NCBI GenBank assembly: GCA_013141375.1 | Contig: JABFRC010000017.1 | Coordinates: 1-37,197, forward strand | Direction of reading: 5' to 3' | DNA length: 37,197 nucleotides | From: Methylococcaceae bacterium | Lineage (GTDB): Bacteria; Pseudomonadota; Gammaproteobacteria; Methylococcales; Methylomonadaceae | Part shown: positions 18,520 to 35,247 of the stretch, piece after piece | Layout of the letters: each line of letters opens with the position of its first letter | Numbering within the stretch: the first letter of the stretch is position 1 | The notes under the pieces: model-generated | Seen by the model: the letters and a program-made list of their open reading frames with translations, nothing else | Told to the model about the DNA's origin: nothing | The model's database searches: none | Program-made: the position numbers and the translations under genes

Positions 18520-18674
18520 CGTTTCTCCCGTTGACGCTTAAGCTTTAATTCACGCAGTTGCTGTTTATGCAAAATTAAAGGCTTGAATATACCGAACAGC
18601 ATTATTAAAAATGCTATTCCGTAAGATGACCAAACATAAAGGGCGTAACCGCCCATGTGTAAAAATTCGCTCAT
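18516..18674 (-). CDS. ccmD: CcmD, small haem-export membrane protein
   Basis: 52 residues, translated by hand from ATG 18674. It begins MSEFLHMGGYALYVWSSYG, continues with one membrane helix (IAFLIMLFGIF), and ends in a strongly basic tail (LRELKLKRQREKR). This is the standard CcmD pattern: an aromatic GGYALYVW N-terminus, one helix and a basic C-terminus. It overlaps ccmC upstream by 4 bp (ATGA) and ccmE downstream by 4 bp. CcmD helps release holo-CcmE from the CcmABCD complex. It is easily missed because of its size. Confidence 0.93.
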   Translation of the reverse strand: MSEFLHMGGYALYVWSSYGIAFLIMLFGIFKPLILHKQQLRELKLKRQREKR

Positions 18675-19408: not shown

Positions 19409-19413
19409 AATAA

Positions 19414-20097: not shown

Positions 20098-20717
20098 GAC
20101 TGTAATTCGATTTTCTTTACTATTTTACTGGGTAGTCCGGTGTCGTGATGTGATGTCATTATCACAATCCCACCTTCAGCGACATGATCCTCAATATAAT
20201 TTTCAAACATTTTGATACTGGCTTTATCCAGAGAAGTAAAGGGCTCATCAAGTATCCACAGGTGTTTTCGGGTACATAACAACCTAGCAAGTGCCAGCCT
20301 CCTTCGCTGACCAGCCGATAAAAACCTGATCGACGTTGTTTGATAGCCGTCGAGCCCCACTTTGCGCAAACTATCATCAATACCCAAGGCTGCAATAGCC
20401 AGCGCCTGGGCAAATTTAAGATTCTCTTCCACACTCAGATCGTCTTTCATGCCATTCATGTGCCCCACATAGGCCACATCTTGGTAAAAAGCCGCTTCCA
20501 GTTCGCTAACGGCGGATCCACACCAAAATAACTCTCCGTCATCCGGATTTCTAAGTCCGGTCAGAATCCGCAGTAATGAGGTTTTGCCGCTGCCGTTTGG
20601 ACCTTCGATCAGTAAAACCTGGCCGCCATTGACCTCAAAGTCGAGACCACTGAACAATACCCGATCATCCCTGATGCAAGCTAGCTGACGGGCTTCAAAA
20701 AACAAAGGTGTGTTCAT
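20094..20717 (-). CDS. ccmA: CcmA, ATPase of the haem maturation ABC complex
   Basis: 207 residues, the usual short form. Walker A is GPNGSGKTSLL, the ABC signature is FLSAGQRRRLALARLL, and Walker B is LWILDEPFTSLD. The switch His is in MTSHHD. It energises release of haem-loaded CcmE from CcmCD. It is the first gene of the ccm operon. A plausible sigma70-type promoter lies at 20769-20797 upstream. Confidence 0.96.
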   Translation of the reverse strand: MNTPLFFEARQLACIRDDRVLFSGLDFEVNGGQVLLIEGPNGSGKTSLLRILTGLRNPDDGELFWCGSAVSELEAAFYQDVAYVGHMNGMKDDLSVEENLKFAQALAIAALGIDDSLRKVGLDGYQTTSIRFLSAGQRRRLALARLLCTRKHLWILDEPFTSLDKASIKMFENYIEDHVAEGGIVIMTSHHDTGLPSKIVKKIELQS

Positions 20718-20880: not shown

Positions 20881-21774
20881 TTATTTTTCAACCGCTTGTA
20901 ACGCCTTATTACCACCACCTTTAGAGATTTTGGCCTTACTCTTCAAGGTTTTTATATAGTCCTGAAATTTCTCCAGACGCAAATTGGCAGACAATTTACC
21001 CTTAATCTCTTCAAAAGCTGGCGCATCCTGAATTCGGGAATCTTCCAGTAAAATCACATGCCAGCCATATTGGGTCTGTATTGGTTGCGAAGCCACATCG
21101 CCCTTGTTCATATTGGCTAGTGCATGATCGAAAGCCGGGCCCAGGGTTCTTGGATCAACCCAACCCAAGTCACCACCTTTACCTTTGCTGCCCTCATCCT
21201 GAGACAATTTAGTTACCAGTGCGCCAAATTTTTCTCCCTTAGCCAGTCTGGTCAGCGTGGCTTTTGCTGAGGCCTCATCATCAAGCAAGATGTGCCTTAG
21301 CTTGAATTGCTTTGACACTAAATTGGGCTTTTTCTGTTCGTAGCTTTTACGTAATTCATCGTCAGTAATAGTCAACGATCTCATGTAATGATCGGCAGCG
21401 ACTTGTGAATACGCAGCTCTCAATACATTGTTCAGTTGCTCTTGGGTCAACGCATCTTTGCTGGTGTCTTTCGTCAAGAAATCCTGCCAGATTAATTCGC
21501 GAGCAACCACTTCATCCAGCAATTGCTCTTCAGTCGGCTGATTCGGCGCCTGTTGATGAGGGGGGATCGCGGATTTTGCAATGGCATGCCCATTTACCGT
21601 TGCCAGCACCTGTTCCGGCTTGAGATTGATTGACGCAGGAATCTGACGATTTGCGAGCGTAGATGATTCTGGCTCACTGGTTGTTGCACAGCCTCCTGCT
21701 AATAAGGCAGCAAATAAACTAAGTGGCATCAACATCTGATTTTGTTTGTTTTTCAAGGCTTTCATATTTTCCAT
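20881..21774 (-). CDS. PpiC-type peptidyl-prolyl isomerase lipoprotein
   Basis: 297 residues. The N-terminus has a lipoprotein signal (LMPLSLFAALLAGGC). An in-frame ATG at 21765 is an alternative start, and neither start has a strong ribosome-binding site. A helical SurA/EpsD-like N-domain (about 60-150: LLDEVVARELIWQDFL) is followed by one parvulin domain (about 155-255: KQFKLRHILLDD, GGDLGWVDPRTLGP, QTQYGWHVILLED). It should catalyse Xaa-Pro isomerisation at the periplasmic face of a membrane. It is 45 bp downstream of the thioredoxin gene, the last gene before the terminator. It is therefore probably a folding helper for the cytochromes or barrel protein of this operon (inference). Confidence 0.87.
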   Translation of the reverse strand: MENMKALKNKQNQMLMPLSLFAALLAGGCATTSEPESSTLANRQIPASINLKPEQVLATVNGHAIAKSAIPPHQQAPNQPTEEQLLDEVVARELIWQDFLTKDTSKDALTQEQLNNVLRAAYSQVAADHYMRSLTITDDELRKSYEQKKPNLVSKQFKLRHILLDDEASAKATLTRLAKGEKFGALVTKLSQDEGSKGKGGDLGWVDPRTLGPAFDHALANMNKGDVASQPIQTQYGWHVILLEDSRIQDAPAFEEIKGKLSANLRLEKFQDYIKTLKSKAKISKGGGNKALQAVEK

Positions 21775-21819
21775 GGCGGTTGGTTAAGGTTATATTTGTA
21801 CTTCATTAATTTGACAGCA

Positions 21820-22362
21820 TTATTGACTGACATGTTGTATTTGCTTTTTCATATCATTCCAAACAGGTCGAGTTAGCGCACCGATGTGCCGGGCACGAAT
21901 GATGCCTTGTGCATCGACTAAATAGGTTTGCGGCAAGCTAAAAACATCCAGCGGCAAACCGGTCGCTGCTGCACCATCAAACATTACCCAGGTAAAAGGA
22001 TCTCCATTTTGCTGAAGCCAGGTACGGGCAACAGCGGCATCGTCTTGATAATTAACACCGTATATTTTCACGCCCACTTCTTCAGCGATGCGCTTTAACT
22101 CGGCATGCTCTTCCCGGCATGGACCACACCAAGACGCCCACACATTGATAATTGCCGGGCCATTAATCGATGACGACTCTAAAACAATATCAGGGCTGAA
22201 TAATGAAGGTAGCCTGAACGCCGGGACTGGTTTATTGATCAGCCGGGAAGCAGATTTATTCGGGTCGTTAGTTAGCCCGTAAAAATACAGCAATCCCAAA
22301 ACAGTAAATAAGACTAAAGGCAAAGCCAATAGTAGCTTGGGAGCCGGTTTGTCTACGCTCAC
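21820..22362 (-). CDS. CcmG/TlpA-like membrane-anchored thioredoxin
   Basis: 180 residues, starting at GTG 22362, which overlaps the stop of the 14-haem cytochrome by 4 bp (GTGA). An N-terminal anchor (LLLALPLVLFTVLGLLYFYGL) is followed by a thioredoxin domain with active site WASWCGPCREEH and cis-Pro segment FSLPQTYLVD. It closely follows the CcmG pattern (NKPVPAFRLPSLF). It is thus a second CcmG-like reductase, besides ccmG at 15579-16109, dedicated by position to the cytochrome operon. Expected role: keeping CxxCH cysteines reduced in the periplasm. Confidence 0.9.
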   Translation of the reverse strand: MSVDKPAPKLLLALPLVLFTVLGLLYFYGLTNDPNKSASRLINKPVPAFRLPSLFSPDIVLESSSINGPAIINVWASWCGPCREEHAELKRIAEEVGVKIYGVNYQDDAAVARTWLQQNGDPFTWVMFDGAAATGLPLDVFSLPQTYLVDAQGIIRARHIGALTRPVWNDMKKQIQHVSQ

Positions 22363-25010
22363 TTTAAATAATCCACGCCAATACTTCTCACCAATTTGGG
22401 ATCATGGTAATACTTGAATTTGGTTTGCGCTTCTAATCCATGGCAATCAACACAAAATGTGCCTTTGATGCCTTTCGTGCGCAGAAAACTGTTTAATGCC
22501 GTACCTTCCACGTTTTCCTTATTCCCCACTGCAGTCACTGACTTGGGTTGCTGTTTTGATTGGGCCAGTTTGTCGGCATTCCAAAAATGGGGATCATGAC
22601 AGGTAATACAAGCGATTTCGCCAAACTCTTCGGCTTTCTCCTTTTTATCCAGCAAGGGCATTATTTTTTTATCGGAGCGAAGCACGACATCTTTATGTGG
22701 GTGTGTAAAGGCCTTGACCACTTTCTTTTCGGCAATACCGTTTTTTTGATGACAATTAATACATAACTGATCTTCTTTAAGCTCGCTATGCTGTAGCTCT
22801 TTGTCTTTCGCGTCCGCAGCAACGGCTAAAGCGGAATACATGTGCGGTACTTTGTTTTCCCCTCTGTGCAAAGTGTGACAAGTGCTGCACACGCCGGCAC
22901 TGGGCTTTTCTTTAAAACGATTGAGTTTGTCTTTCGCCGTGATGCGCAAATCATGGTCGCTACCGACTATCGCCTGTTTACCGGCATGGCAATGTGAACA
23001 CAATTGACCATCTTGATGTTCTTCGACAAGTGCAGGTGTGTTCGCTTTGCCGCTATGGACGGCATGGCAAGTCAAACAACCGATTTCCCGCGTCTTTTTA
23101 CCATCGATTTCCACTTCATCATCCATTTTCATATTGACCGGATGCACGCCTTTTTTAAAGGCATCGTCTTTGTCCTTTGCATCCTGGCGATCATGGCAGG
23201 TATGGCAAAGTGCTTCTGCATCCTTAATGCCTTTTTCCAGCAAGGCCGTGCCAAGTTTGCCATCATGCACGCTATGGCAAGACTGACAACTGACAAAGCT
23301 TACGTCCTTATCATCCTTCTTCATCGGTTTATCAGGCTTGATATTGACCGGATGCACGCCTTTACGCCGCGCATCTTCCTTATTTTTAGAGGCCTGCCGT
23401 TCATGACAGGCCATACAAAGTTCGCCTTTATCATTTTCCAGGGCTGTCAGTTCACGATTATCATGACCGCCATGCACTTGATGGCAGGACTGACAAACCA
23501 AAGTTTGCTCATGCCCAAGCACGCCACCTTTGTCGGCGAGATCTTTCGGCAAGCCATCATGCAAGTTTTTATCTCGCGCAAAACCCAAAGCATCCGGCTT
23601 GGGAGGCACGGCTAATTTAATTGCCAGCGGGTGATTGAGGCCGCGATTTTTAGGATCCAACTCGCGCGCCTGTTTAATTTTTGACTCATGACAACGCTCA
23701 CACATATCCCCGCCTTTATTGGGCGTCCTTAACCAAGCATTTTTATGGCCTTCGTATAAGGTTTCATTACCCTCACCCTTCGTATGTGGTGTGTGGCAAC
23801 TGGTACAGGGCAGCTCTTTTTTATCAGTGCGTGGAAAAATATCCGGCAATTTATCTTTACGCGCATCTTTGCCAAAACTGGCTCGGTATTGCTGATGACG
23901 CTTTTCCTTTAGCTCATCCTTATCATAAACACTGGCGTGCTGGCCGTTTTTACCGATGCGTAAACGCGAATCCAGCACTGCACCGTTATGACAGCTGTAA
24001 CACATCAAAAAAGAGGCTTCGGGTAATACTTTGTGGTCATCCGGCGCATTACCCTCTTTAGCCCAGGATAAATGACACAGTTGGCAATTTTTTTGCGACG
24101 GCTCAGCGCTGGTTTCATGACCGGTAACGGCAGGTACATTATCAAGGCCATTAATACTTAAAGCCATGACCCGGTTGGCAAATGTCTCGGCAATAAACAG
24201 TTTATCTTTGTGCCATGCCAATCCGGTCGGGGATTTGAATTTTACCGGCTGACCATCAATGCCGGTCAATTCACCCAAGGCTTCACCGGCACGAAACATT
24301 TTAATGGTGCCGAAATAGCTGTCACTGACAAAAACCAGGTCATGCTGACTATCGATGGCAATACCGTTGGGCCTAAACAAATCTGCCGGGCCGGAACCAA
24401 AATGACCAATCTGGTAAACAAATCGCCCCAGTTTATCGAACACTTGAAGCCTGGCATTAAGGATGTCAACGACATGTAAATAGCCATCGCGATCAAATGC
24501 CATTTGGTAGGGATATTGAAACTCACCATCAACCTCGCCGCGCTTACCGAAACAATCCAATGCCGCCTGTTTGGCAAGGTCAAAGCGACAGATTCGATGA
24601 TTGGCGCGATCCGCCCAGTAAATCACTTCCTGATACACGGCTATCGCCACCGGTTCCGGCGGCGATTTGCTTTCGGCCGTGTTGGTCACGTCAATGACTT
24701 GCTCTATTTTACCGACATTATTCAGTCGTATCAGTCTGCGACCCAGCGGATCGGCTGCAAACCATTGGTCTTTATAATTAAACAAATCCAGAGCCGTGCC
24801 AGGCACACCAAAATCCGACGAAGCGGACTGTCCTTCCGGATCGGTAAGTCGCAAGCCTTTTGCATCCAGCACACCCAGCTTCCCGACAGCATTAACGGTA
24901 ACCGCAACGGGTTGTTCAAGATTGCTCAGCACCGGCCGTTGGACAGCGACATTCAACGCAAATGCTTGGTAAGTCCATACCAGAAAAAAAATAACGATGA
25001 AACGAAACAT
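22359..25010 (-). CDS. NHL beta-propeller fused to a 14-haem cytochrome c
   Basis: 883 residues from ATG 25010. A TTG six bases upstream is also open, and the upstream gene ends at 25017. A signal peptide (FIVIFFLVWTYQAFA) is followed by NHL-type propeller repeats (about 30-290), e.g. FQYPYQMAFDRDGYLHVVD and FRPNGIAIDSQHDLVFVSD. Fourteen CxxCH motifs lie between C309 and H857. They fall in seven pairs of the doubled-CxxCH type, each C..CHxxH....L-C..CH. The middle pairs share the linker KKGVHPVN, which points to internal duplication. The product is expected in the periplasm or at the cell surface as an electron wire with a docking propeller. No lipobox was seen. It is the largest haem carrier of the operon. 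Confidence 0.93.
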   Translation of the reverse strand: MFRFIVIFFLVWTYQAFALNVAVQRPVLSNLEQPVAVTVNAVGKLGVLDAKGLRLTDPEGQSASSDFGVPGTALDLFNYKDQWFAADPLGRRLIRLNNVGKIEQVIDVTNTAESKSPPEPVAIAVYQEVIYWADRANHRICRFDLAKQAALDCFGKRGEVDGEFQYPYQMAFDRDGYLHVVDILNARLQVFDKLGRFVYQIGHFGSGPADLFRPNGIAIDSQHDLVFVSDSYFGTIKMFRAGEALGELTGIDGQPVKFKSPTGLAWHKDKLFIAETFANRVMALSINGLDNVPAVTGHETSAEPSQKNCQLCHLSWAKEGNAPDDHKVLPEASFLMCYSCHNGAVLDSRLRIGKNGQHASVYDKDELKEKRHQQYRASFGKDARKDKLPDIFPRTDKKELPCTSCHTPHTKGEGNETLYEGHKNAWLRTPNKGGDMCERCHESKIKQARELDPKNRGLNHPLAIKLAVPPKPDALGFARDKNLHDGLPKDLADKGGVLGHEQTLVCQSCHQVHGGHDNRELTALENDKGELCMACHERQASKNKEDARRKGVHPVNIKPDKPMKKDDKDVSFVSCQSCHSVHDGKLGTALLEKGIKDAEALCHTCHDRQDAKDKDDAFKKGVHPVNMKMDDEVEIDGKKTREIGCLTCHAVHSGKANTPALVEEHQDGQLCSHCHAGKQAIVGSDHDLRITAKDKLNRFKEKPSAGVCSTCHTLHRGENKVPHMYSALAVAADAKDKELQHSELKEDQLCINCHQKNGIAEKKVVKAFTHPHKDVVLRSDKKIMPLLDKKEKAEEFGEIACITCHDPHFWNADKLAQSKQQPKSVTAVGNKENVEGTALNSFLRTKGIKGTFCVDCHGLEAQTKFKYYHDPKLVRSIGVDYLK

Positions 25011-25016
25011 AAGCAA

Positions 25017-25838
25017 TTAACGCAGCATCTCGCGAATGGTTATATGCTCATCATCCTTTTTGTAACGGCGGATAAATTGAGGAATTATATGCTTGGCCAT
25101 TGCCTGACTTTGTTCAGCCGTCGCCCCCAGAGCTTGTAGATTTAGCAGGCTTTTTTGTTCGTCATGGCACCCCTGGCACTCAGGTCCTTTCTTTTCCAGC
25201 GGAAGATGCAGCTTGGCACGCAACAGCACTTTAGCGCTGGTATCTGCCTTATCCCATTGATCGGCAATCTCTTTGGAAAAGCTTTGGTCTTTAAACGCAA
25301 TCACCGGCAGGCCATCCTTGAAAGGCGCAATTTTAGGGTTAGCGGGTCTTTGCTTGGCGTTATCGATTTCCTGACCAATTCTGAATAAGCCCTGGCCATT
25401 AACCGACTGTTGCTTGTCATAATCCAGCCACTGATAGTCAAACTCCACATCCTTGGGCCGAAAGTGACAGGTTTCACAGGCTATAAAACGCACATGCATA
25501 TTATTAAAGCCACGAGTACGCAGCTGACTTCGATGCGGTAACGGGCTATGACAATTGCGGCAAAACGTATTCGGAGCTGTTTCCAGCTCACCCGACTGTT
25601 TATGAAAATTCGGCACTGCAAATTTGTCCAAAATTTTGATGTTCTTGTGCTCGCGCAACATTTTCTCAGAATGCGCCAGCGCTTCCTGATCAGGCACTGC
25701 TTGCTCTGCCCTTTGTTGATAAAGTGAGATCTTTTCTACTGGGTTGACTGGTGGTGTCTGCGCCAAAATCAAATTGCTGACACATCCAGAAAACCAGACA
25801 CAAATAAGTAATGGCTTTAACAGACCCCGCAAGCTCAT
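25017..25838 (-). CDS. Three-haem cytochrome c, possible lipoprotein
   Basis: 273 residues with a GGAGGA ribosome-binding site, overlapping the upstream cytochrome gene by 4 bp. The N-terminus (LLKPLLICVWFSGCVSN) is a signal sequence with a Cys at the place of a lipobox (FSGC). The match to lipobox rules is imperfect. Haem motifs are CRNCH, CETCH and CQGCH. The spacing between the second and third is long (about 100 residues), and extra His residues could be axial ligands. A helical C-terminus (EQSQAMAKHIIPQFIRRYKK) follows. If lipidated, it would sit on the outer membrane or be exposed at the surface. No close family recognised. Confidence 0.85.
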   Translation of the reverse strand: MSLRGLLKPLLICVWFSGCVSNLILAQTPPVNPVEKISLYQQRAEQAVPDQEALAHSEKMLREHKNIKILDKFAVPNFHKQSGELETAPNTFCRNCHSPLPHRSQLRTRGFNNMHVRFIACETCHFRPKDVEFDYQWLDYDKQQSVNGQGLFRIGQEIDNAKQRPANPKIAPFKDGLPVIAFKDQSFSKEIADQWDKADTSAKVLLRAKLHLPLEKKGPECQGCHDEQKSLLNLQALGATAEQSQAMAKHIIPQFIRRYKKDDEHITIREMLR

Positions 25839-27175
25839 GAATCATCCTCCGAATAATCTATTGGGTCTGCCGAAGTTGCTGCATCAGGCAGTACCGATTC
25901 CTTCTTTTTAGGCGCAAAACGACTTAAGCCATTTTTGATATTGCGTTTAATAATCTCCCACCGGCCTTCTTTGACCCTGGCCTTGTTCTGCTTCGTCCCG
26001 ATGATAATGCGCTGAAACTTATCCGCACCCAGCACCGAGTTATTATTGTTTTTGCTCAGTTTGCTGCGATCTCCAGCGACCCACCAAAACACACTGCCGC
26101 AGAAAAAAACCAATGCCAACACGCCAAAAACAACGGAGCCCACATACCAGTTTGACGTCGTCTTCTGTAATTCGGACAGTTTGGCTTGAAGACCAACCGC
26201 AATCGTAGATGCACTGTGCATTTTGGTAGTCAAAAAGCCATTATTGGCCAGCACTTTGGCATAGCCTTTATGACAACCGGATTGCCCGCAGGTATCTGCC
26301 AAGTGAGCTTCGTTCACTGAAGATCGCTGATCTTCATCACGCATAATGCCGTGATGCAATCCGGTCGGCGCATGGCATTCAATACAGGATGCGCCATGCA
26401 TGCTGCCATCTTTTATTAATCGACCATGCAGGGTTTTGTCGTAGGATTCGCTTGAATGAACAAACTCAGGACTGACAGGTTTCTTTTCTTTAGTAACCGG
26501 ATCTTCCTGTTCAACCTTAGACATCCTTTCAATATCACCATGGCAATCCGCGCAGATTTTATTGGAGGTCGGCTTGTTGATCCTATTACCGATATAGCGG
26601 CGCAAAATATGGCCGCTGAACTGTTCCCGCCAGACATCGCCTGCATGACAAGTGCCGCATTCGGCATCATTGTGTTCGAAGGCCTCTTTAAAAGCGGCCA
26701 TCTGGCTTTCAGCAATATAGGGTTCGTTGACATGACAGCGTCGGCACGATGGCAAGCTTGAATCCTTATCTTCCTTGATTCGATTACCCGCCGCAAAATC
26801 CTTGGTCAAGCCCTTGCCATGAGCGGACGTTTGAAATTCTTTGGCAATCTCTTTATGCGTAAAGGCTTTACCGTCTGAAGGCTCCTTAACATGGCAGCTT
26901 TCAGCACAATCCACCAAGCCATCTTTTTCTTCGTGAGGATAATCAGTGATTTTTCGATGGCAATCCTTGCAAGGCACCGAGCCGTGTAAAGAGCCATAGT
27001 AATCAGCCTTCAGAATGGTTGCCGACCGTATTTGACCTTGATCGTCGATGTATTTCAAATCAGGCAAACCATGGCAGGAAAAACAGCCATCCGGATCAGG
27101 ATGGCGTTTTTCAGCGTAAGCACCGCCGAAAAGCAGCCCTGCCATCACGAGCATAAAAAATGTAATCGACCGCAT
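25835..27175 (-). CDS. Membrane-anchored multihaem cytochrome c (6 canonical + 2 atypical motifs)
   Basis: 446 residues from ATG 27175. A TTG at 27178 precedes it, but ATG gives a clean signal peptide, MRSITFFMLVMAGLLFGGAYA. Canonical motifs: CFSCH (C31), CKDCH (C69), CRRCH, CGTCH, CADCH and CIECH. Two unusual ones: C90-AES-C94-H95 (CX3CH) and CGQSGCH (CX4CH). A single membrane helix follows at about 342-364 (SVVFGVLALVFFCGSVFWWVA), then an ~80-residue basic, presumably cytoplasmic tail. NapC/NrfH-type anchors are N-terminal; here the anchor is C-terminal. It sits immediately downstream of the NapH-like gene. This suggests that the pair takes electrons from the quinone pool to periplasmic cytochromes (inference). 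Confidence 0.9.
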   Translation of the reverse strand: MRSITFFMLVMAGLLFGGAYAEKRHPDPDGCFSCHGLPDLKYIDDQGQIRSATILKADYYGSLHGSVPCKDCHRKITDYPHEEKDGLVDCAESCHVKEPSDGKAFTHKEIAKEFQTSAHGKGLTKDFAAGNRIKEDKDSSLPSCRRCHVNEPYIAESQMAAFKEAFEHNDAECGTCHAGDVWREQFSGHILRRYIGNRINKPTSNKICADCHGDIERMSKVEQEDPVTKEKKPVSPEFVHSSESYDKTLHGRLIKDGSMHGASCIECHAPTGLHHGIMRDEDQRSSVNEAHLADTCGQSGCHKGYAKVLANNGFLTTKMHSASTIAVGLQAKLSELQKTTSNWYVGSVVFGVLALVFFCGSVFWWVAGDRSKLSKNNNNSVLGADKFQRIIIGTKQNKARVKEGRWEIIKRNIKNGLSRFAPKKKESVLPDAATSADPIDYSEDDS

Positions 27176-27224
27176 CAAAACAAGTAGTCCCTAACCTTTG
27201 TGTATTTTTATTTTTAAAAAATGC

Positions 27225-28271
27225 TTAGTGAATCGCCAAGCTCGCGGTAACCAGCAAAGTAAAGCCGACTACCAACACGCCGTTAATAACCCTGCCCCAC
27301 TGAATTTCACGATGATTTATCGTAGGCTCAAGTCGGGGCTTGAAGGTGATCACCTGCCAATCCGGTTCCGGGAATATCTCGGTGCCTTTTTTGATGCGTT
27401 TTGGGTTTTTGTTGCGTGAGCCGGTCGTCCATTCAATCGCATTCCAGTCGCACACATCAACGCATTCATGGCAATCCATACAGGAAGATTGCTGAACCGT
27501 GGCAATTTTATCGACCATTTTTATCGCGCCGCACATACAGTTACGTGCGCAAATATTGCAGCCGGTGCAACGCTCCTTGGCGACCCGAATTCGGTGCGTA
27601 CTGCGAAAACGAGAACCCAAGCTGTTGACTATTCCGTCAATCGCGCCGATCGGACACATAAACTGGCAATACGCCCTGCCCTTGCTGGCAAAAAAACCCA
27701 GTAATAACAACAAGGATAAATTCACCAGGCCAACGGCTGAAAAAATAAACGCCAAGCCGCCGGCACCGCCAGACATCGACTCAACCAGGCGAGGCACGGT
27801 AATAAAATTACATAAAGTACATGCGCTGACGCCAATGGCCGGTAACACGATCATATACGTCGCCAAATATCCGTAGCGAATCTGAAATTGCGGAAGCCAT
27901 CGGTATTCAATCTTCCAGCGATCATTTAATAGTCGACTGACCAGTTCGCTAAAGCCGCCGACTGGGCAAAGATAGCCGCACCAGATCCTGCCAAAAAACA
28001 ACGTGGTCAACAGAATCAAGGCAAAGGCGATCACACCGATCATCGCGGCTGAGGCATGGGTTGCAAAATCTTCAACCGTCATGCCTGGGAAATATAAGTA
28101 AAAACGGCGCATACAAAGACGACCGCATAAATCACTGTTGCCTGCCAATTTAGGCAAAATCGTCAACGGACCCAAAAACAAAACACAGGAAATAAAAATG
28201 GTGATGTAGCGAAACCGCTGCACTTTAGGTTGCTCAAGCCATTCTGTATACCAAGCTTTCAGTATTTTCAT
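27225..28271 (-). CDS. NapH/NosR-like 4Fe-4S membrane protein
   Basis: 348 residues with a GAGGGCG ribosome-binding site. Five or so membrane helices: about 20-45, 75-100, 130-155, 178-205, and a C-terminal one, VINGVLVVGFTLLVTASLA. Signature CX3CP motifs WCGYLCPVGG and YCQFMCPIGA are those of the NapH/NosR/RdxA group. Two ferredoxin motifs follow: CTGCNICARNC and CMDCHECVDVC (each CX2CX2CX3C). The family moves electrons between quinol and membrane or periplasmic partners. Its place beside a membrane-anchored multihaem cytochrome suggests a quinol-oxidising entry module. A further C-x2-C pair (ACTLCNF) is in the membrane region. The CMDCH string is part of a ferredoxin motif, not a haem site. 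Confidence 0.92.
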   Translation of the reverse strand: MKILKAWYTEWLEQPKVQRFRYITIFISCVLFLGPLTILPKLAGNSDLCGRLCMRRFYLYFPGMTVEDFATHASAAMIGVIAFALILLTTLFFGRIWCGYLCPVGGFSELVSRLLNDRWKIEYRWLPQFQIRYGYLATYMIVLPAIGVSACTLCNFITVPRLVESMSGGAGGLAFIFSAVGLVNLSLLLLLGFFASKGRAYCQFMCPIGAIDGIVNSLGSRFRSTHRIRVAKERCTGCNICARNCMCGAIKMVDKIATVQQSSCMDCHECVDVCDWNAIEWTTGSRNKNPKRIKKGTEIFPEPDWQVITFKPRLEPTINHREIQWGRVINGVLVVGFTLLVTASLAIH

Positions 28272-28326
28272 ATCATCGCCCTCGCGGATTTATCGGGTTT
28301 GCTTACACGCTTTAAAATTAAATTGT

Positions 28327-29241
28327 TCATCGGTCAAACTCATGACAACTCAAACATAATTGGCCGTTTTTGGCCGGCAATCTCAATAACACTTCAGACT
28401 TGATGCGTTTATAGGGCAGCTCAACACGTTCTCTAGTTGTCTGCTCCAGTAAGGTTAAACGTTCCTGCTTGTCAGCCTGATAAACCTGATCCCAGGAATG
28501 CTTAACATATTCGACACCCTTTTCGACATCGCCCAGCACCTGCCGGCCTGCAGGATTTTTCTTACCGTCAATCACCCCGTCCGGATGCGGCGAATGGCAA
28601 CTGACGCACATCACTTTGCCGGCATTTGACAGCGGTAAGGTGATGCCATGTTTCTCTGCCTCGACCTTCATGTGCTTTTTCATCTCGTCCTTGGGTTTGG
28701 CTTCCTGATGCTCCGGCGCGTTCAAATGCGGTGTTTTCAAATGACAGCCCAGACATACATTTTCAATTGGCAGACGCAGCTTTAAATCGGCTGGCTTGCG
28801 CGGCTTTTCCCGCTGCTCGTTAACTTCTTCATGACAATACAGGCAGTTCTGCTTTTTTATCTCGCCATTTTTTTCCAACATGACGTGGATATTCGGCCGC
28901 TCATTGTCTTTTTTGTTATGACACTGATAGCAAAAGGCTTCAAAATCCGGATAAGGCCCGCCACGCAAAAAGTCTGGCGCATCTTTATTCACTTTGTCAT
29001 AAGGAATTTCATCCATTTTTTCCAGACCATGACAGGTTTTGCATTGCAACAATCGTCCGGTCTTCAAGACAAAATCCTCAGGCGGCATCATAGCTTCCAA
29101 CAGTTTTACATCAACGGCATGGTGCAAATCCGGCAAGCGTTTGGACTGTTTGTAGGATTGCCTTTGCCAATCGTCCTCTCCCGCGAGACTGATAGTCCAT
29201 GGCATCAACAGCAATACCCATAGTGACAGAACCAGCTTCAT
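28327..29241 (-). CDS. Six-haem periplasmic cytochrome c
   Basis: 304 residues with a Sec signal peptide (LVLSLWVLLLMPWTISLA). Haem motifs in order: CKTCH, CYQCH, CLYCH, CLGCH, CVSCH and CLSCH, the last four residues from the C-terminus (CLSCHEFDR). Doubled-CxxCH-type spacing is visible, e.g. CVSCHSPHPDG. Lysine/glutamate-rich helices separate motifs four and five. No membrane anchor or lipobox, so the protein should be soluble in the periplasm and act as an electron carrier. The start overlaps the stop of the 8-haem gene by 4 bp (ATGA). The next gene is 55 bp downstream. Confidence 0.9.
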   Translation of the reverse strand: MKLVLSLWVLLLMPWTISLAGEDDWQRQSYKQSKRLPDLHHAVDVKLLEAMMPPEDFVLKTGRLLQCKTCHGLEKMDEIPYDKVNKDAPDFLRGGPYPDFEAFCYQCHNKKDNERPNIHVMLEKNGEIKKQNCLYCHEEVNEQREKPRKPADLKLRLPIENVCLGCHLKTPHLNAPEHQEAKPKDEMKKHMKVEAEKHGITLPLSNAGKVMCVSCHSPHPDGVIDGKKNPAGRQVLGDVEKGVEYVKHSWDQVYQADKQERLTLLEQTTRERVELPYKRIKSEVLLRLPAKNGQLCLSCHEFDR

Positions 29242-30278
29242 AAGCCTTTTTGTACCCGTTCGCCATGACTATGGCAGGTCACGCAATCCGCTCCGTCATT
29301 GAAATGCACACCATTTAAACCATTGCCAGTATCCTGGGCACCGCCGGAAAGCTTTCTTTCCTGATCAGTCACATTCATGCTGTGGCATAACACGCATAAT
29401 TGGCTGTAGTCACTTTTAGGAACAGACTCTCCATTGGTGTTTACACCATCAAATATTTCAGCCTTGTAGGCTTCTTTGCGAAATTGAGCATCCAGGTGAA
29501 ATACGCCTTTTCTCGAATCATCAATAATCAATCCCGGATTTTTTGTGCCATGCATCGTGTGACAATCGACGCAATCGACAATACTTTTGTACTGATAGCC
29601 CTCTCGCAGGCCCGGATACAACGCTCTTTCAACTTCCGCGCCATCAGTAACGCCATGTTTATCAATTTTAAGAAAGTCATTTTCGGCAGCGATGGACTGG
29701 TCGCGTTTCCCTGCATTTTTTATTTTATGTTTCTTTTGCTGATGATCCCGATTATGACAACGAATGCAAAAGTCATTCACATCCACATACGCACTCTTGC
29801 CAACTAACTTGTCATTAAACATCGTCAAATCTTGCTTAATCTCAAACGTCCCATCCATATCTGAGCCGACATGGCACACCTCACACTGCGCACTCGTTGT
29901 GGGCAAATCTTTTTTCAAATTAAAATCGTGCCGATGTTTGCCGGTTCGAATCGGGTTTACCGGTAAATCGTTAACATTGTGGCAAACCAAACACTGCCGA
30001 GCCGCCTTGGTGCCATTGCTGCCATGACAGCCGGTACAGGTTGAAAAACCTTTTTTTTCAACGATGACCTTAATTTTCGGCACTGTATTGTGCAGACGCG
30101 ACATAAAGTGACAACTGCTGCACTTGGATTTCCCCCAGGCCTCACCCTGACCATGACTGGGCGTCAATAGTAAATTACCCGACGCCATCGACACATCTCT
30201 GGCATGCACCTGCGGCATCAAAACCAACAGCAAAAGCCAGAAAACAAGCTTTATCTTTAAACAATTACTGAGCGGCAT
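29238..30278 (-). CDS. Eight-haem cytochrome c
   Basis: 346 residues from ATG 30278. The frame is open further upstream within the preceding gene, but this start yields a proper signal peptide (LKIKLVFWLLLLVLMPQVHA) and overlaps the upstream stop by only 14 bp. Eight CxxCH motifs in order: CSSCH, CTGCH, CLVCH, CEVCH, CIRCH, CVDCH, CVLCH and CVTCH. Paired-motif features include CVDCHTMHGTKN. The seventh and eighth hold the C-terminus, which ends in VQKGL. No lipobox or anchor is seen, so it should be soluble in the periplasm or secreted. Its haem count matches porin-embedded cytochromes such as OmaB, but sequence assignment to that family cannot be made by eye. Confidence 0.9.
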   Translation of the reverse strand: MPLSNCLKIKLVFWLLLLVLMPQVHARDVSMASGNLLLTPSHGQGEAWGKSKCSSCHFMSRLHNTVPKIKVIVEKKGFSTCTGCHGSNGTKAARQCLVCHNVNDLPVNPIRTGKHRHDFNLKKDLPTTSAQCEVCHVGSDMDGTFEIKQDLTMFNDKLVGKSAYVDVNDFCIRCHNRDHQQKKHKIKNAGKRDQSIAAENDFLKIDKHGVTDGAEVERALYPGLREGYQYKSIVDCVDCHTMHGTKNPGLIIDDSRKGVFHLDAQFRKEAYKAEIFDGVNTNGESVPKSDYSQLCVLCHSMNVTDQERKLSGGAQDTGNGLNGVHFNDGADCVTCHSHGERVQKGL

Positions 30279-30909
30279 GGCAATCACTGCAGTAAAGCTC
30301 GTTATGGCAACGCCCACATCGGGCCGGATCCATCCGGGACTCCAAACCATGCAAGGTTCTGTAACCCAATGGGTGATAACCTTGACCAGAGGTATCCCGC
30401 CGCATGTGACAATCGGTACAAAAATTCATATCCAGATGGCAGGTTTCGCAATTTTTTTCATTTTGCCGGGCAATCTCACCATGATGATTTTTGTAATCTG
30501 ATCGATGATCGGCCGGCCAGATTTTTTCTTTGTTGTCATGGCAAAGATCACAACGCCAGGGTGCCCGCTTTTCTTCAACATGACAGCTATGGCAAATCGG
30601 CTTGAGTGCTTCATTGGCAATCAGTGTCACTTGCTTCAATTTTTTGGCATCTGCAACATCGCTCTTGGTAAAGCTGTGGCACAACAAACAACTGTCGCCT
30701 TCCTGCTCCATCACTTCCAGATGCGCGTTATGTGGATAATAAATATCCGAACGCTTATCTCGTAACTTCCACCATTTTTTATCTTCGTCGTGGTCCGGCA
30801 GTAGTTGCTTGTGTTCCTGCACAGCAGTCACGTCTTTCAGTGTTGATGTTTCAGCAAATCCCGGAGCAAATACACTCCAAAGCAAAATTAACATGACCAG
30901 CCTCATCAT
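30265..30909 (-). CDS. Seven-haem cytochrome c
   Basis: 214 residues with a signal peptide (LVMLILLWSVFAPGFA). Seven CxxCH motifs: CLLCH, CHSCH, CDLCH, CETCH, CTDCH, CGRCH and CSDCH. Several follow each other with only about 8-10 residues between (e.g. CETCHLDMNFCTDCH and CGRCHNELYCSDCH). Haem density is about one per 31 residues, typical of molecular wires. It lies directly after the barrel gene (4-bp overlap), the position expected for a cytochrome that threads or docks to that barrel. Two adjacent ATGs (30909, 30906) are possible starts. Confidence 0.92.
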   Translation of the reverse strand: MMRLVMLILLWSVFAPGFAETSTLKDVTAVQEHKQLLPDHDEDKKWWKLRDKRSDIYYPHNAHLEVMEQEGDSCLLCHSFTKSDVADAKKLKQVTLIANEALKPICHSCHVEEKRAPWRCDLCHDNKEKIWPADHRSDYKNHHGEIARQNEKNCETCHLDMNFCTDCHMRRDTSGQGYHPLGYRTLHGLESRMDPARCGRCHNELYCSDCHAAQ

Positions 30910-32321
30910 GGCTGACTGGCCTGAAAGCGATCGAAATAATAAGTCAGCTGCAAGGCTCCTAAATACTCGTTGTTTATCTTGCTGTTATCGATATAGCTGG
31001 CCTTGAATGCAAAGACCAAATCATTCTGGAACATGTATTGCCATTCGGTTTCAATACCCTTTGCCAGATTCTGCCCATAAAGAGACTTGTTTTCTTCACG
31101 CAGCGACAGATTGAGTGAATAATGGATCTTGGCATTTAAAGCGTGAGCACCAGACATATAAAGACTCTTGGCATTTTCACCGCTACTTAACTCCAAGTAA
31201 TCCAAAGTTCCCGATAAATTCACGCTCGGCGCTAAGGCATAATTTACCCCGCCATTAAATCCGAAACCGGCATAACCTTTGTCACGATTCGCGTATTGCG
31301 TTCCCACTGAATAGCGCAATTTGTCATTCCAGCGCTGCTCGACACTTCCTCGCCAAACTTCTTGCTCACCCAGGGCATACGCCGAATAAAATCGATCGCG
31401 GAAGGTCACAAAGCGTTGTTTGGGACGGTAGGCTTCGTAATAACTGCGCAAGCGCACGTTTTTAACCACATCCCACCAGCTTTCAACAAAGGCATTTTCC
31501 AGCTGATTTTTATCCATCGCATAGGAGCCCTTGATAAACGTCTCCATAGGTTTGTCTCGCCCCAACAAATGTCCTGCCAAACGCGCAGCGCCGTTCAAAC
31601 GGTAGGTGCTGATGGTCGAGACCTGGCTTGAACCGGCTTGCTGTTGTTCAATCACGTCGCCATTGATATCAACACCTTGTGACACCAGAACGTCATCCGT
31701 CACCTCGGTTAAATCCCGTTGTGCCGTCTGAAACCCGGCGCGCAAATCCAGATTGTTGATATGCGCCCAGCCTTTGCCAAATGTCCATTCAGGCGTCAAC
31801 GACATGATCGCTTCTGCACCGGCCACATAATTGCCGAACACCGAACGCACATGATCAACTCGTAAAGGTCTGCCCGCATAAACTTCGACTGTCAACGGAC
31901 GCCCGTTAAATCTATAAGTCGCCTGCCCGCCATCCAGGAGATAAAGTCCGAGGTTATCGCTTTTTTCAAAACGCCCGGCGCGGACAACCAATGGCAAGGA
32001 CTTAAAATCTTTTTCAAGATAGCTCTGGTAAATCTGCTGTTTTTTACGATAAATATCAGTGCTCAATCTGCCCAGCAAACTGATTCTGGCTTTAAGTTGT
32101 AACTCAGGATTATCGTAAAAAAGCTGCCCCCAACTCTCGCCGGTGTAATCGCCATCTTTATCGTAACGATTATCCGTTTGAACTTTGGTTCTGATTGAGC
32201 CTTTCCAGGTATCCGCCAATGCCGTCGTCGATTCAACGCCTAACAGAGTCAACAGGATGAGTGGAGAAAAGACGTTTAAACATCTAAAACCACCCTCGGT
32301 ATACTTAACGAATTCCGTCAT
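30906..32321 (-). CDS. Outer-membrane beta-barrel protein of a porin-cytochrome complex
   Basis: 471 residues with a signal peptide (VFSPLILLTLLGVESTTALA). The mature protein is made of alternating beta strands with aromatic girdles (e.g. LFYDNPELQLKARISLLG, YLGALQLTYYFDRF), long turns rich in D/N/G, and no haem motif. This is typical of an outer-membrane barrel of about 18-22 strands. Surrounded by cytochrome genes, it resembles the barrel partner (MtrB/PioB/OmbB/ExtD role) that holds a cytochrome across the outer membrane. I cannot assign it to one of these families by sequence. The start overlaps the end of the small Cys-rich gene by 17 bp. Confidence 0.82.
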   Translation of the reverse strand: MTEFVKYTEGGFRCLNVFSPLILLTLLGVESTTALADTWKGSIRTKVQTDNRYDKDGDYTGESWGQLFYDNPELQLKARISLLGRLSTDIYRKKQQIYQSYLEKDFKSLPLVVRAGRFEKSDNLGLYLLDGGQATYRFNGRPLTVEVYAGRPLRVDHVRSVFGNYVAGAEAIMSLTPEWTFGKGWAHINNLDLRAGFQTAQRDLTEVTDDVLVSQGVDINGDVIEQQQAGSSQVSTISTYRLNGAARLAGHLLGRDKPMETFIKGSYAMDKNQLENAFVESWWDVVKNVRLRSYYEAYRPKQRFVTFRDRFYSAYALGEQEVWRGSVEQRWNDKLRYSVGTQYANRDKGYAGFGFNGGVNYALAPSVNLSGTLDYLELSSGENAKSLYMSGAHALNAKIHYSLNLSLREENKSLYGQNLAKGIETEWQYMFQNDLVFAFKASYIDNSKINNEYLGALQLTYYFDRFQASQP

Positions 32322-32589
32322 CCGTTCTTACTTCAAATGGCTCAAGCCCTTGTTCTAAGAGTTTCTTACGATCTTTCCGGCTTTTAATTGCCCATCCAGC
32401 CAAGGTTGCTACAGCCACAACACAGCTGCCGCAGCCTACACATTTACCGATTTTCGGCACCGAGCAACCTGTCGCCAGAAACGCTTGTCCTGACGCCATT
32501 CCGGAGCCAGCCAGCCATGGTCCAACCTTATCAAATAAATTAAATTTCACAATTGACTCCGATTGAGTGTCGATATCAGGCATTGCCAT
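32305..32589 (-). CDS. Small Cys-rich protein of unknown function
   Basis: 94 residues from ATG 32589, which has GGAGGA upstream; an ATG two codons later is also possible. The protein has no signal peptide. A Gly/Ala/Ser-rich segment precedes C42, and GKCVGCGSC (C50, C53, C56) is followed at once by a short hydrophobic stretch (VVAVATLAGWAIK). A charged, probably cytoplasmic C-terminus ends the protein. The CX7CX2CX2C pattern could ligate an iron-sulfur cluster or metal, and the hydrophobic segment may associate with the membrane. It lies between the large cytochrome and the barrel gene with 18 bp and overlapping spacing, so it belongs to the operon. No family recognised. Confidence 0.75.
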   Translation of the reverse strand: MAMPDIDTQSESIVKFNLFDKVGPWLAGSGMASGQAFLATGCSVPKIGKCVGCGSCVVAVATLAGWAIKSRKDRKKLLEQGLEPFEVRTDDGIR

Positions 32590-32607
32590 CGCACGATCCT
32601 CCGTTCA

Positions 32608-35247
32608 TCATTTCTTTTTGGCCTTTTTCAGATCAACCAAAACCAGCTGTTCAGGTAACCTGTCAACACTAACGAGCACATAACCTGGGTTAACAGACGT
32701 TCCCGGTTTAACGCCAATAAACTCGGCTTTCATTACCGTTAACGGGGCGAGTTGATTGTCATTGAGTACGCGAGTTTCGAACAATTCGACTTTGCCGGCG
32801 TCTTTTGCTCGTCCGGCATAAGGCAACCTAACCAATAATTTTGATGCGCCCAAAGAATCAACCGATTGTCGCTGCTGGTCTTGCAATTGAAAATTGAACA
32901 CCGGACTGGTAACACTCCCTTGAGCAATCAGGTTGCTGGCTTTCTTGGGTTTTTTACCTGCAGGCGTCAGCTTGTAAGTCAACCAATCATTCAAAGCGAC
33001 TTCCAAACGATAATTGGGAACGATAGTCTTACTGGCACTGGTAAAGTCCAAGGCGATTGCAAGCTTGCCGACTTTATCCCCGGAAATGAGGTTGTTAAAC
33101 AAGAACACTTTGGGTGTCAATTTAGCGCTGGCAGCGCTAAAGATTGCCGCATCATCCTGGGCAACTATCTCTAAGGCCTCACCTTTGGTAACTTCCTTAA
33201 ACTCACCAGTCGCCACATCTTTAGAATTGAGCTTAAGCACCGAAGTAAAAGGATCCATCTTGGTTTCGTAAAGCACTTCATCGACATTTTCGATAATCTT
33301 GCCGTCTTTACTCACTTCAAAATACGGCATATCAAGCTTAACTACACCATCCTTCACCAAGCGGGCATAAGCGGTGGTATCGGTTATTTCCGAGACCACA
33401 CTGACATTCTTCTTACCTAAGATGCGATCCGGTTCGACAAGTGAACTTACCGAACCATTTTGTTTGCGCGCATGACATTCTTCACAAGGCATGGCGGACA
33501 CGGCAGGCCGGGTATTATGACTTATCAGATACTCGTTGGACTCCGTCCAGATCATCTGCACATCAGGCTTTGCGTAGTTTTTGCTTAACAGCAAATCATC
33601 GAAAGCCACTTTTAATGCCAGAATTGCCTGGTAAGTCTGCGGAGCACTTTCCACACCCTTGTTAACGGATAAAATCTCCTGACGGGTAATCACGCGCTTG
33701 CTGATTTTGTCCATCCAGTAATAGCGACTAGCCGGTTTGTAAGGCATCATTTTCAAACTGCCGTCTTCAGCTTCACGATAGCGATAGCGAATCTTCAAGT
33801 CTTTGCCGTCAGCCTTCAACTTGGTGATATGGCAGGTTTGGCAAGCGATCACATCAAGATGGACCTGCGTTACCTTATTTAAGGAGTTTGCAGGATAGCC
33901 CACCATGTCACCATTGGTTTTCCATAACTCACGGTGCGCATCCAGAATATTGTCATGACCTGATGGCAGTGCAGGTTTAGGCGCGCCACCAAACTTGGGA
34001 CCGTTGTGGCAATATTCGCAGGACAAGGGACCAGGCTGAAAATTAAGATCCTTACGCACATCTTCATCGGAATTACCGATCAGGAAATTATGATCAGCAT
34101 CAAGGTCTACGTTGCGAAAGGTGTCTTTATAGTATTGTTTGCTATGGCAGGAGTTGCAGTTTTCCATATAACGCGCACGGCCTTGGTCATTCCAGAGCTT
34201 GCCTTTATGCACATCATCCTGGTAATCGACGATCAATGTCCCATCAGGCGCTTTTTCTTCTTTTGATACCTCACCAAATCCATAAAAGCCGCGGCGGTTG
34301 TGGCTGGTTTTATGGCATTGCATACAATTGGTGTCACCAGGAAAGCGCAACATCGGAATTTGCACCTTCAAATTACTGTCGAAAGCGGCAGCGTTCCATT
34401 GCAATACAGGCTGGCCCTCTGCATCATTGCCACCCGGCACAGTCAACAAAGTCTTCCCATCAGCGCTTGAAGGAGACACATTCAGGAACGCAAAAATGGC
34501 TGAATTGGCGTATCGAAACAAGCCCTTATTAATGAATTGTTTGGTACGCAAATCTGTCCACTCATTTGCGGGCTTTTTAAACTTGGCAAAATCAGCATGA
34601 CAAATCATACAGTCAGGCTCAATCACACCGCTTTTTTGCCAGTTCCATTTACTTAAAACATTGCCGGGATTGTTGCTGCTGTCGCCAGTCAGCCAGTCAA
34701 AATAATCGCCATCCAATGGCTTAATTTCTGATGCCGTCATCTTTTGGTATTGATTGCCATCACGGTCTTTTTCAGCGAACCCGCCACCGTTATGGCATTC
34801 CGCACAATTTTTAATCAGGCCGGGCGCACCATAATCCAAAAATTCATTTTCGGATGCATTCACTTTTTTGGCCAGCCATTGAGGTGTATTCAATTGTCCG
34901 GGGTTATAACCACAGTTATAACCGCCGAAAAAACCGGGTGACACCAATTGATCCAGACCCAGCTTTTTGCCGTAACCATCTGCCGCCTCATCCCTGCCCA
35001 TTTCAAAATGATAGGCATGACTGATCTTGTCAATATCATGGCAACCACCACCTTCGCCGTTACCACAACTCATCCTGGTGCTGTAGGGCTTTTTGCTGTT
35101 GACTACATGCTGACCCTCTTCATCCACCAGCGGGATGGACGGATGCAATACAGGTTGATCGAACACATTTTGACCTGCCATCACAGCCAGTGACGACACC
35201 AGTAAAAACAACCCCATCAACACAACAAAAAAATGCGCCCTTTTCAT
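32608..35247 (-). CDS. Large multihaem cytochrome c (7 CxxCH plus one CX7CH) with C-terminal beta domain
   Basis: 879 residues with a signal peptide (FFVVLMGLFLLVSSLAVMA). Canonical motifs: CAECH, CMICH, CMQCH, CNSCH, CEYCH, CQTCH and CEECH (C588). Near the N-terminus, C61-GNGEGGG-C69-H70 stands where a first haem site would be expected (followed by DIDKISHAYHFEMG), but has seven residues between the cysteines. About 285 residues after the last haem contain no Cys-haem motif and look beta-rich (YRLEVALNDWLTYKL, VTSPVFNFQLQD). This part could be a substrate- or partner-binding domain. First gene of the operon. No convincing Shine-Dalgarno before ATG 35247. Function: probably an electron-transfer or terminal reductase/oxidase subunit; substrate unknown. 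Confidence 0.9.
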   Translation of the reverse strand: MKRAHFFVVLMGLFLLVSSLAVMAGQNVFDQPVLHPSIPLVDEEGQHVVNSKKPYSTRMSCGNGEGGGCHDIDKISHAYHFEMGRDEAADGYGKKLGLDQLVSPGFFGGYNCGYNPGQLNTPQWLAKKVNASENEFLDYGAPGLIKNCAECHNGGGFAEKDRDGNQYQKMTASEIKPLDGDYFDWLTGDSSNNPGNVLSKWNWQKSGVIEPDCMICHADFAKFKKPANEWTDLRTKQFINKGLFRYANSAIFAFLNVSPSSADGKTLLTVPGGNDAEGQPVLQWNAAAFDSNLKVQIPMLRFPGDTNCMQCHKTSHNRRGFYGFGEVSKEEKAPDGTLIVDYQDDVHKGKLWNDQGRARYMENCNSCHSKQYYKDTFRNVDLDADHNFLIGNSDEDVRKDLNFQPGPLSCEYCHNGPKFGGAPKPALPSGHDNILDAHRELWKTNGDMVGYPANSLNKVTQVHLDVIACQTCHITKLKADGKDLKIRYRYREAEDGSLKMMPYKPASRYYWMDKISKRVITRQEILSVNKGVESAPQTYQAILALKVAFDDLLLSKNYAKPDVQMIWTESNEYLISHNTRPAVSAMPCEECHARKQNGSVSSLVEPDRILGKKNVSVVSEITDTTAYARLVKDGVVKLDMPYFEVSKDGKIIENVDEVLYETKMDPFTSVLKLNSKDVATGEFKEVTKGEALEIVAQDDAAIFSAASAKLTPKVFLFNNLISGDKVGKLAIALDFTSASKTIVPNYRLEVALNDWLTYKLTPAGKKPKKASNLIAQGSVTSPVFNFQLQDQQRQSVDSLGASKLLVRLPYAGRAKDAGKVELFETRVLNDNQLAPLTVMKAEFIGVKPGTSVNPGYVLVSVDRLPEQLVLVDLKKAKKK

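Follow-up and report, generated by a model that had tools for sequence, protein, structure and literature searches.

Porin-cytochrome conduits are known as a kind, and in methanotrophs an operon of this sort is on record from Methylococcus. A 2015 study described the 11-gene operon MCA0424-0433 of Methylococcus capsulatus, with 58 CxxCH motifs, proposed that it exports electrons, and reported higher expression of its genes without copper (PMC4831470). Formate-driven reduction of ferrihydrite and of an anode by the same species was measured in 2018 and was stronger in copper-starved cells; deletion of MCA0421 lowered the current from 118 to 86 nA per cm2 (PMC6281684). Porin-cytochrome complexes (PCCs) of unspecified type were mentioned in Methylobacter (PMC6344600), and a 2026 paper stated that aerobic methanotrophs were still without a reported Mtr-like conduit (PMC13322032). 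Here we describe a gene cluster at positions 20881-35247 of a 37,197-nucleotide stretch of a Methylococcaceae bacterium (contig JABFRC010000017.1 of assembly GCA_013141375.1; the whole stretch is called the window below). Judged by its sequence, the locus is the counterpart of MCA0424-0433, and it probably encodes a conduit that carries electrons outward across the cell envelope.

The window carried twelve co-directional open reading frames (ORFs) of 94-885 amino acids, all on the minus strand (g01 to g12; Table 1), as a first-pass annotation had described. Its figure of 51 CxxCH motifs in seven cytochromes was also reproduced (7, 7, 8, 6, 6, 3 and 14), with a 52nd motif sitting within a ferredoxin motif of the NapH-like g07 and not among the 51. 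These motifs cannot be due to chance, because proteins with shuffled residues (2000 shuffles per protein) averaged only 0.01-0.06 CxxCH each, with a maximum of 2. The description of most junctions as ATGA or GTGA overlaps did not hold; four-base overlaps were present at 4 of the 11 junctions, and the remainder comprised one abutting pair, one overlap of 17 nucleotides, one of 86 nucleotides, which is probably an artefact of the start call of g05, and four gaps of 18-55 nucleotides.

Table 1. Genes of the locus and of its two flanks in the 37,197-nucleotide window, with the reading given to each.
Feature	Position	Strand	Reading
g01	32608..35247	-	7 CxxCH + one variable-spacing C..CH; probable surface terminal cytochrome
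g02	32305..32589	-	94 amino acids; four invariant cysteines (C42, C50, C53, C56); possible Fe-S site
g03	30906..32321	-	outer-membrane beta-barrel, 22 strands in model
g04	30265..30909	-	7-haem cytochrome, haem-dense; candidate wire inside barrel
g05	29238..30350	-	8-haem cytochrome; start probably about 25 codons downstream of listed ATG
g06	28327..29241	-	6-haem cytochrome
g07	27225..28271	-	NapH-like membrane Fe-S protein, 16 invariant cysteines
g08	25835..27178	-	periplasmic cytochrome, 6 CxxCH + CX3CH + CX4CH; one C-terminal membrane helix, cytoplasmic tail
g09	25017..25838	-	3-haem cytochrome
g10	22359..25016	-	NHL-type propeller, then 14 haem sites
g11	21820..22362	-	DsbE/CcmG-type thiol-disulfide oxidoreductase; second copy besides the one in the ccm operon
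g12	20881..21774	-	parvulin-type peptidyl-prolyl isomerase (PF00639), possible lipobox pattern; accessory, outside conserved core
ccmABC, ccmE, ccmF, ccmG, ccmH-like, ccmI	13859..20717	-	haem-attachment operon directly downstream; outside the unit first annotated
c553o-type gene	35812..37197	+	surface cytochrome, N-terminal part, PKD domain; contig ends inside gene

The gene content and order, CxxCH counts, gene fusions, predicted barrel fold and conserved cysteines were observed directly, and together they suggested how such a conduit could be built. Electrons would be taken at the inner membrane by g07 and g08, perhaps with g02. The products of g05, g06 and g09 would act as soluble multihaem carriers across the periplasm, the part of each being putative, and g04 inside the g03 barrel would form the outer-membrane wire. 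At the cell surface, g01 and the divergently encoded c553o-type protein, possibly with g10, would pass electrons to acceptors. In the window's form the donor would most likely be quinol, and in the form found in Methylococcus and Methylothermaceae a flavoprotein fused to g08 could let NADPH feed the module. The gene g11 and the adjacent ccm genes may aid haem attachment. The outward direction and the loading of cofactors are assumed from the genes. The complete conduit proposed by the first-pass annotation was thus upheld in its parts, with a barrel, multihaem cytochromes and an inner-membrane module of its own, and stays conditional in its function.

The genes g01-g10 form one conserved module. 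A scan with g04 returned 51 loci from many Methylococcales, from Methyloprofundus and Bathymodiolus symbionts, from Methylothermaceae and M. capsulatus Texas, and also from metagenome-assembled genomes that carry a Chromatiales or Gammaproteobacteria label and whose isolate names, HyVt for example, presumably point to vents. In 50 of the 51 loci the g02-g10 genes detected were co-directional and in the window's order, the exception (L073) having g05-like copies upstream, and all ten core genes lay on the fetched stretch in 25/51. Neither g12 (1/51 loci, and 1/20 of a further set, L032-L051) nor g11 (8/51, the copy in L101 lying among ccm genes) belongs to the core. Among ORFs of at least 100 amino acids on the fetched stretches, no other gene recurred widely around the module, the largest family being present in 6/51. 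Some genomes of the L032-L051 set are also in the 51-locus set, and the two were added together only for the CxxCH tallies given below.

Within Methylococcales, the order of the window, 33 of 201 genomes had the barrel, and the one other genome of the same genus searched (G051) did not; the methanotroph kinship first suggested was supported by these genomes and by the g04 loci. A search of 321 genomes of the class gave ten g04 matches, of which three, with values near 1e-3, were weak. Occurrence outside the order was seen independently in 5 same-class genomes of other orders (E <= 5e-62). In 349 genomes of the phylum, g02 matched its own genome and gave two weak matches only, g07 matched its own genome only among 299 genomes at E <= 1e-40, and viral contigs yielded no matches. 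One locus labelled Desulfuromonas (L070) carries a Methylococcales-type copy and groups with a Methylococcaceae locus; it may be mis-binned.

Compared with MCA0421-0433, the locus has the same genes in the same order with c553o alongside, a comparison that used M. capsulatus Texas (L065) and Methylococcus-group genomes in place of the Bath sequence, with the MCA locus tags matched by gene order and counts; on that matching MCA0427 is the barrel gene and MCA0431 the gene of the g08-flavoprotein. Methylococcus-group loci carry g01 twice, one copy on each side of g02, and agree with the window in the order of g03-g10, and in one of them (L042) the eight cytochromes have 7+7+7+8+6+6+3+14=58 CxxCH, which equals the published number. 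The window differs in having one g01, 51 CxxCH, a g08 without flavoprotein, a c553o gene that is divergent instead of co-directional, and a peptidyl-prolyl isomerase gene and ccm operon downstream. The cluster had first been considered a possibly distinct type; it is distinct from the MtrAB family, but its Methylococcus counterpart had been reported.

The annotation of g03 as an outer-membrane barrel agreed with a structure model of 22 strands, a count that omits one three-residue strand (mean predicted local distance difference test score, pLDDT, 81.7; built from 47 rows). By VIA-align the model matched TonB-dependent receptor barrels best (Fiu, Z 18.8, root-mean-square deviation 4.8, 359 residues), and Foldseek placed pilus ushers first (E 7.6e-10, template-modelling score about 0.4). 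The modelled strands start right after the signal peptide, leaving no plug domain. In TonB receptors a plug sits inside the barrel, so a small protein could be accommodated in one of this kind. With a mature length of about 195 residues and a gene that adjoins g03 in the loci where both were detected, g04 is a candidate to fill it. The structure model of g04 had a mean pLDDT of 47 and was unusable for a fold search. None of the 47 barrel rows matched PF11854 (MtrB_PioB). This family also had no match in the window's own genome, a null result that lacks a positive control, as 14 control genomes were all below the cut-off as well. MtrB was absent from the 50 listed rows of each structural search of the barrel, an absence that excludes nothing. 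Sequence searches of the PDB with the barrel, g04, g01 and g02 returned nothing meaningful.

The inner-membrane end of the module was unusual in its cysteines. By its sequence g07 appears to be a NapH-like relative rather than NapH itself, scoring 79 bits against TIGR02163 (cut-off 213.05). Twelve of its sixteen invariant cysteines align with the Fe-S cysteines of Escherichia coli NapH, and all sixteen, including the extra C49, C53, C151 and C154, were invariant in 38/38 rows, a count that took all 37 locus rows of at least 300 amino acids in the 51-locus set. At the four extra positions E. coli NapH has S, L, W and I. Five weak matches (L146-L150) keep the CX3CP cysteines and none of the extra ones. 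Among NapH-like proteins the comparison covered E. coli NapH and L143-L150, and within it 0/6 (E. coli NapH and the weak matches) had any extra cysteine and 3/3 strong matches (L143-L145) had all sixteen. By hydropathy the four extra cysteines are predicted to lie on the periplasmic side, at the ends of helices 1 and 3. In g02, C42, C50, C53 and C56 were invariant in 44/44 rows and stand just before a hydrophobic stretch, for which hydropathy marks residues 47-68 only. We read g02 as a membrane hairpin, with a weaker hydrophobic stretch preceding these cysteines, which are a possible Fe-S site.

Two kinds of gene fusion involve g08, which is probably an octahaem cytochrome, as its CX3CH and CX4CH motifs were invariant in 26/26 aligned rows. 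First, g07 and g08 formed one protein in 5 of the 37 loci of the 51-locus set that hold both, and in 0/18 of the L032-L051 set. This fusion was present in L143-L145 too, and the carriers of fused forms were several Gammaproteobacteria of orders other than that of the window. Since attachment of c-type haems takes place in the periplasm, the fusion fixes the topology and puts the dicluster part in the cytoplasm. Second, in 3 of the 33 complete rows of the 51-locus set, g08 was fused to a full-length CysJ-like NADPH diflavin domain (M. capsulatus Texas, L065; LaPlata Methylococcaceae, L076; Methylothermaceae, L084), the chain going on beyond the membrane helix as a flavodoxin-FAD-NADPH reductase. 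The flavoprotein of L042, from the Methylococcus group, aligned end to end with CysJ (6efv, E 2e-143), including the last tyrosine and the SRDQ..KVYVQ stretch, which we take to select NADPH. On a quick, unrooted tree of 43 rows, the flavoprotein-fused state needed one change. A gene with a flavodoxin domain was noted in the MCA region (PMC517821). The open-access main texts searched gave no mention of a flavoprotein fusion as an entry to extracellular electron transfer; the word "flavodoxin" is absent from the main text of PMC4831470 and PMC13322032, and among the texts searched a single paper names MCA0431. Separately, several genomes of the order (L123, L124, L125 and L126) encode another diflavin reductase, about 740 amino acids long and 61-63% identical to the g08-fused domain; its additional N-terminal domain, about 200 amino acids in length, presumably resembles molybdopterin-dinucleotide-binding or FwdD-type proteins.

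These fusions link the NapH-like, octahaem and NADPH-flavin parts as one entry device, and g07 with g08 is the likely inner-membrane entry. A search of the window's own genome for a diflavin protein encoded apart from g08 that could serve it as partner gave one match (G000:C294), which lay beside a glutamate-synthase-like frame and looked to us like CysJ; it was not taken as a partner, because similar proteins occur in barrel-less relatives such as the same-genus G051. Since the flavoprotein is missing and the genome offers only this CysJ-like protein, quinol entry is the default in the window. The quinol entry proposed at first pass is therefore retained as one possible entry, set against the relatives in which g08 is fused to an NADPH diflavin reductase. 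By the limits of electron tunnelling, one hop cannot bridge the distance between the two membrane faces, so that a quinone or another cofactor may lie between them. A bolder reading, which we regard as tentative and rather doubtful, is that g02, g07 and g08 form a new type of inner-membrane wire, running from NADPH through flavins (where fused) and an Fe-S ladder to the g08 haems; the ladder would include a periplasmic-side cluster on the extra g07 cysteines and another in g02. If so, it would couple extracellular electron transfer directly to NADPH rather than, or besides, the quinol pool.

The haem count of 51 is probably too low. Besides the two g08 motifs, g01 has a C..CH site that differs in spacing between relatives and was kept in 30/30 aligned rows, as CX2CH in one relative (L061), CX4CH in most and CX7CH in the window, and the predicted total would be 54 if all three additional sites bind haem. 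Among complete members, CxxCH numbers were constant in g04 (7 in 56/56), g06 (6 in 57/57), g09 (3 in 41/41) and g08 (50/50), and nearly so in g01 (7 in 54/56) and g05 (8 in 47/54); relatives of g10 had 12 to 20. These tallies pooled the 51-locus set with L032-L051, so some genomes were counted twice. After the length filter, alignments held 25 of 33 complete rows for g08, 29/37 for g01 and 18/31 for the g07 profile; those of the barrel (46), g04 (39) and g02 (43) used all complete rows. The counterparts of g01, MCA0424 and MCA0426, were found in the surface fraction of Methylococcus (PMC4831470), and g01 is the probable terminal cytochrome at the surface. Duplicated g05-like octahaem genes were observed near the barrel in L073, L085, L086 and L087.

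Several points weigh against an outward conduit. For the window's organism, function is read from the genes alone. The match of the barrel fold names no function, because Foldseek ranks pilus ushers first, and the poor model of g04 leaves its fit in the barrel an inference. The window's g08 comes without flavoprotein, and the sole diflavin protein of the genome looks like an ordinary CysJ. In Methylococcus, MCA0421 is a c553o gene beside the operon and not part of the core, its deletion costs roughly a quarter of the current, and the cells were not seen to grow on Fe(III) (PMC6281684).

The same genes could encode a cell-surface metal reductase, in which Cu(II) or Fe(III) is reduced outside the cell for uptake and the chain is no respiratory outlet. 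The rise of the Methylococcus genes under copper limitation fits this, as do the TonB-family genes in the copper-responsive cluster MCA0421-0447 and the FUR box predicted upstream of MCA0424 (PMC4831470). We consider this unlikely, since 58 haems are, in our judgement, a large number for scavenging, no uptake gene recurred widely among ORFs of at least 100 amino acids on the fetched stretches, and the formate-driven reduction of anode and ferrihydrite by Methylococcus amounts to electron export (PMC6281684). Electron uptake, in which Fe(II), minerals or partner cells would supply quinone or NADP with electrons by inward flow, appeared highly improbable. Transfer from NADPH to haem is expected to be downhill outward, which counts against it. 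The anodic current of Methylococcus with formate does so too (PMC6281684), and what speaks for uptake is that the analogous PioAB and MtoAB were suggested to serve Fe(II) oxidation (PMC6344600). Similarly improbable is a periplasmic electron store or detoxification chain with the barrel as a separate transporter without a bound cytochrome: the listed structural matches of g03 are transport and usher barrels and the placement of g04 within it is a candidate only, but g03 and g04 adjoin wherever both are detected, and counterparts of g01 lie on the Methylococcus surface (PMC4831470).

Both flanks of the locus held genes related to cytochromes. The gene at 35812 lies 564 bases from g01, outside the unit first annotated, and its remainder, with 8 CxxCH, is on contig C57. 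Over 465 positions it is 46% identical to a gene with 8 CxxCH that immediately precedes g01 in a genome of the Methylococcus group; published Methylococcus maps place c553o beside g01, and the family name of the Methylococcus gene was taken from them by position (PMC4831470, PMC517821). By its PKD domain, eight predicted haem sites and this likeness, the gene is assigned to the cytochrome c553o family. Genes like c553o were present on 7/51 loci of the g04 scan. Further c553o-like or PKD-bearing genes were observed in the own genome on contigs C292, C206, C150, C112 and C363, with large frames of 8 CxxCH each on C292 and C206, and in a Methylococcus-group genome (L128, 4179-9946) a second c553o-like frame seemed, by eye, to be split by a long transposase-looking frame. 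Of the eight ccm genes downstream, seven scored over the curated NCBIfam cut-off and the ccmH-like gene fell below it; g11 reached 134 bits against TIGR00385 (cut-off 123.15), which makes it DsbE/CcmG type. Genes for ccm lay near the cluster in further loci too, and the closest of the 51 loci (L052) had an identical layout from c553o to ccmA.

The terminator claimed after the last gene is plausible and not proven: the gap between g12 and ccmA holds a hairpin with a short T run (z -1.7; 7/200 shuffles fold as well), which a consensus scan did not return. Between g01 and the c553o gene, a 19-nucleotide element with the core GATATGAC was observed in three copies at 35433-35567 and is absent from the rest of the window (3 matches against 0.7 expected; 3/100 shuffles reach 3); two copies lie within an inverted repeat with 21 nucleotides between its arms, a possible regulator site. 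Sigma-54-like sites numbered 7 in the window against 3.4 expected, with 0 for another form of the pattern; one of them precedes the c553o gene and another precedes g01, but this is too near chance to claim. Elsewhere in the window, a plus-strand gene at 2276-5647 encodes a hybrid histidine kinase of 1123 amino acids whose N-terminal 480 or so residues look like a multi-helix transporter (no Pfam match at E<=1e-5), followed by a LuxR-type response regulator (5644-6573, plus strand).

Aerobic methanotrophs occur in anoxic sediments and on anodes. For the question of how electrons leave such cells, the locus offers ten genes as one defined module, in which the gene targets are clear, and its two fusions make the question of electron entry biochemically testable. 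The first-pass annotation had recognised no MtrA or MtrC among the cytochromes. This was largely supported, as the ten proteins scanned reached at most 25.0 bits against OmcA/MtrC TIGR03507 (NCBIfam, cut-off 209.3) and a best of 62.6 bits (g10) against DmsE/MtrA TIGR03508 (cut-off 192.2), with no match for g04; together with PF11854, this spoke against membership of the MtrB, MtrA and MtrC families. Four of the seven cytochromes, however, exceeded the 30-bit cut-off of Pfam PF22113 (MtrC/MtrF domain II/IV), namely g01 (37.2), g05 (39.0), g06 (41.3) and g08 (32.6), which we read as a likeness in haem spacing, as haem-rich models of this kind may respond to the CxxCH spacing by itself; a distant kinship with MtrC-type domains is a less likely possibility. 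Like MtrCAB, MtoAB and PioAB, the module combines a barrel, multihaem cytochromes and a probable surface cytochrome, but g03 is without PF11854 and is modelled with 22 strands. The MtrB barrel has 26. The OmbB-OmaB-OmcB and Ext complexes of Geobacter follow the same general plan.

The four-gene PCC of Methylobacter is likewise found patchily in Methylococcales and proposed to export electrons; it is set apart by description, having a decahaem MtrA-family cytochrome, an MtrB/PioB-family barrel and two monohaem cytochromes, and the main text of that paper contains no MCA locus tag (PMC13322032). For the inner-membrane end, an ANME-2c genome offers a likeness, with NapH followed by an 8-haem cytochrome in an arrangement reminiscent of quinol:cytochrome c oxidoreductases (PMC9012536). 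The pair g07 and g08 differs from NapH in the four extra cysteines, the g07::g08 fusions and the diflavin fusions. Relative to these systems, what is new is the recognition of g01-g10 as one module, with its fixed order and its occurrence also outside Methylococcales, together with a modelled 22-strand barrel that has no MtrB/PioB match, the likely g07 and g08 entry with its fusions, and the extra cysteines of g07 and g02.

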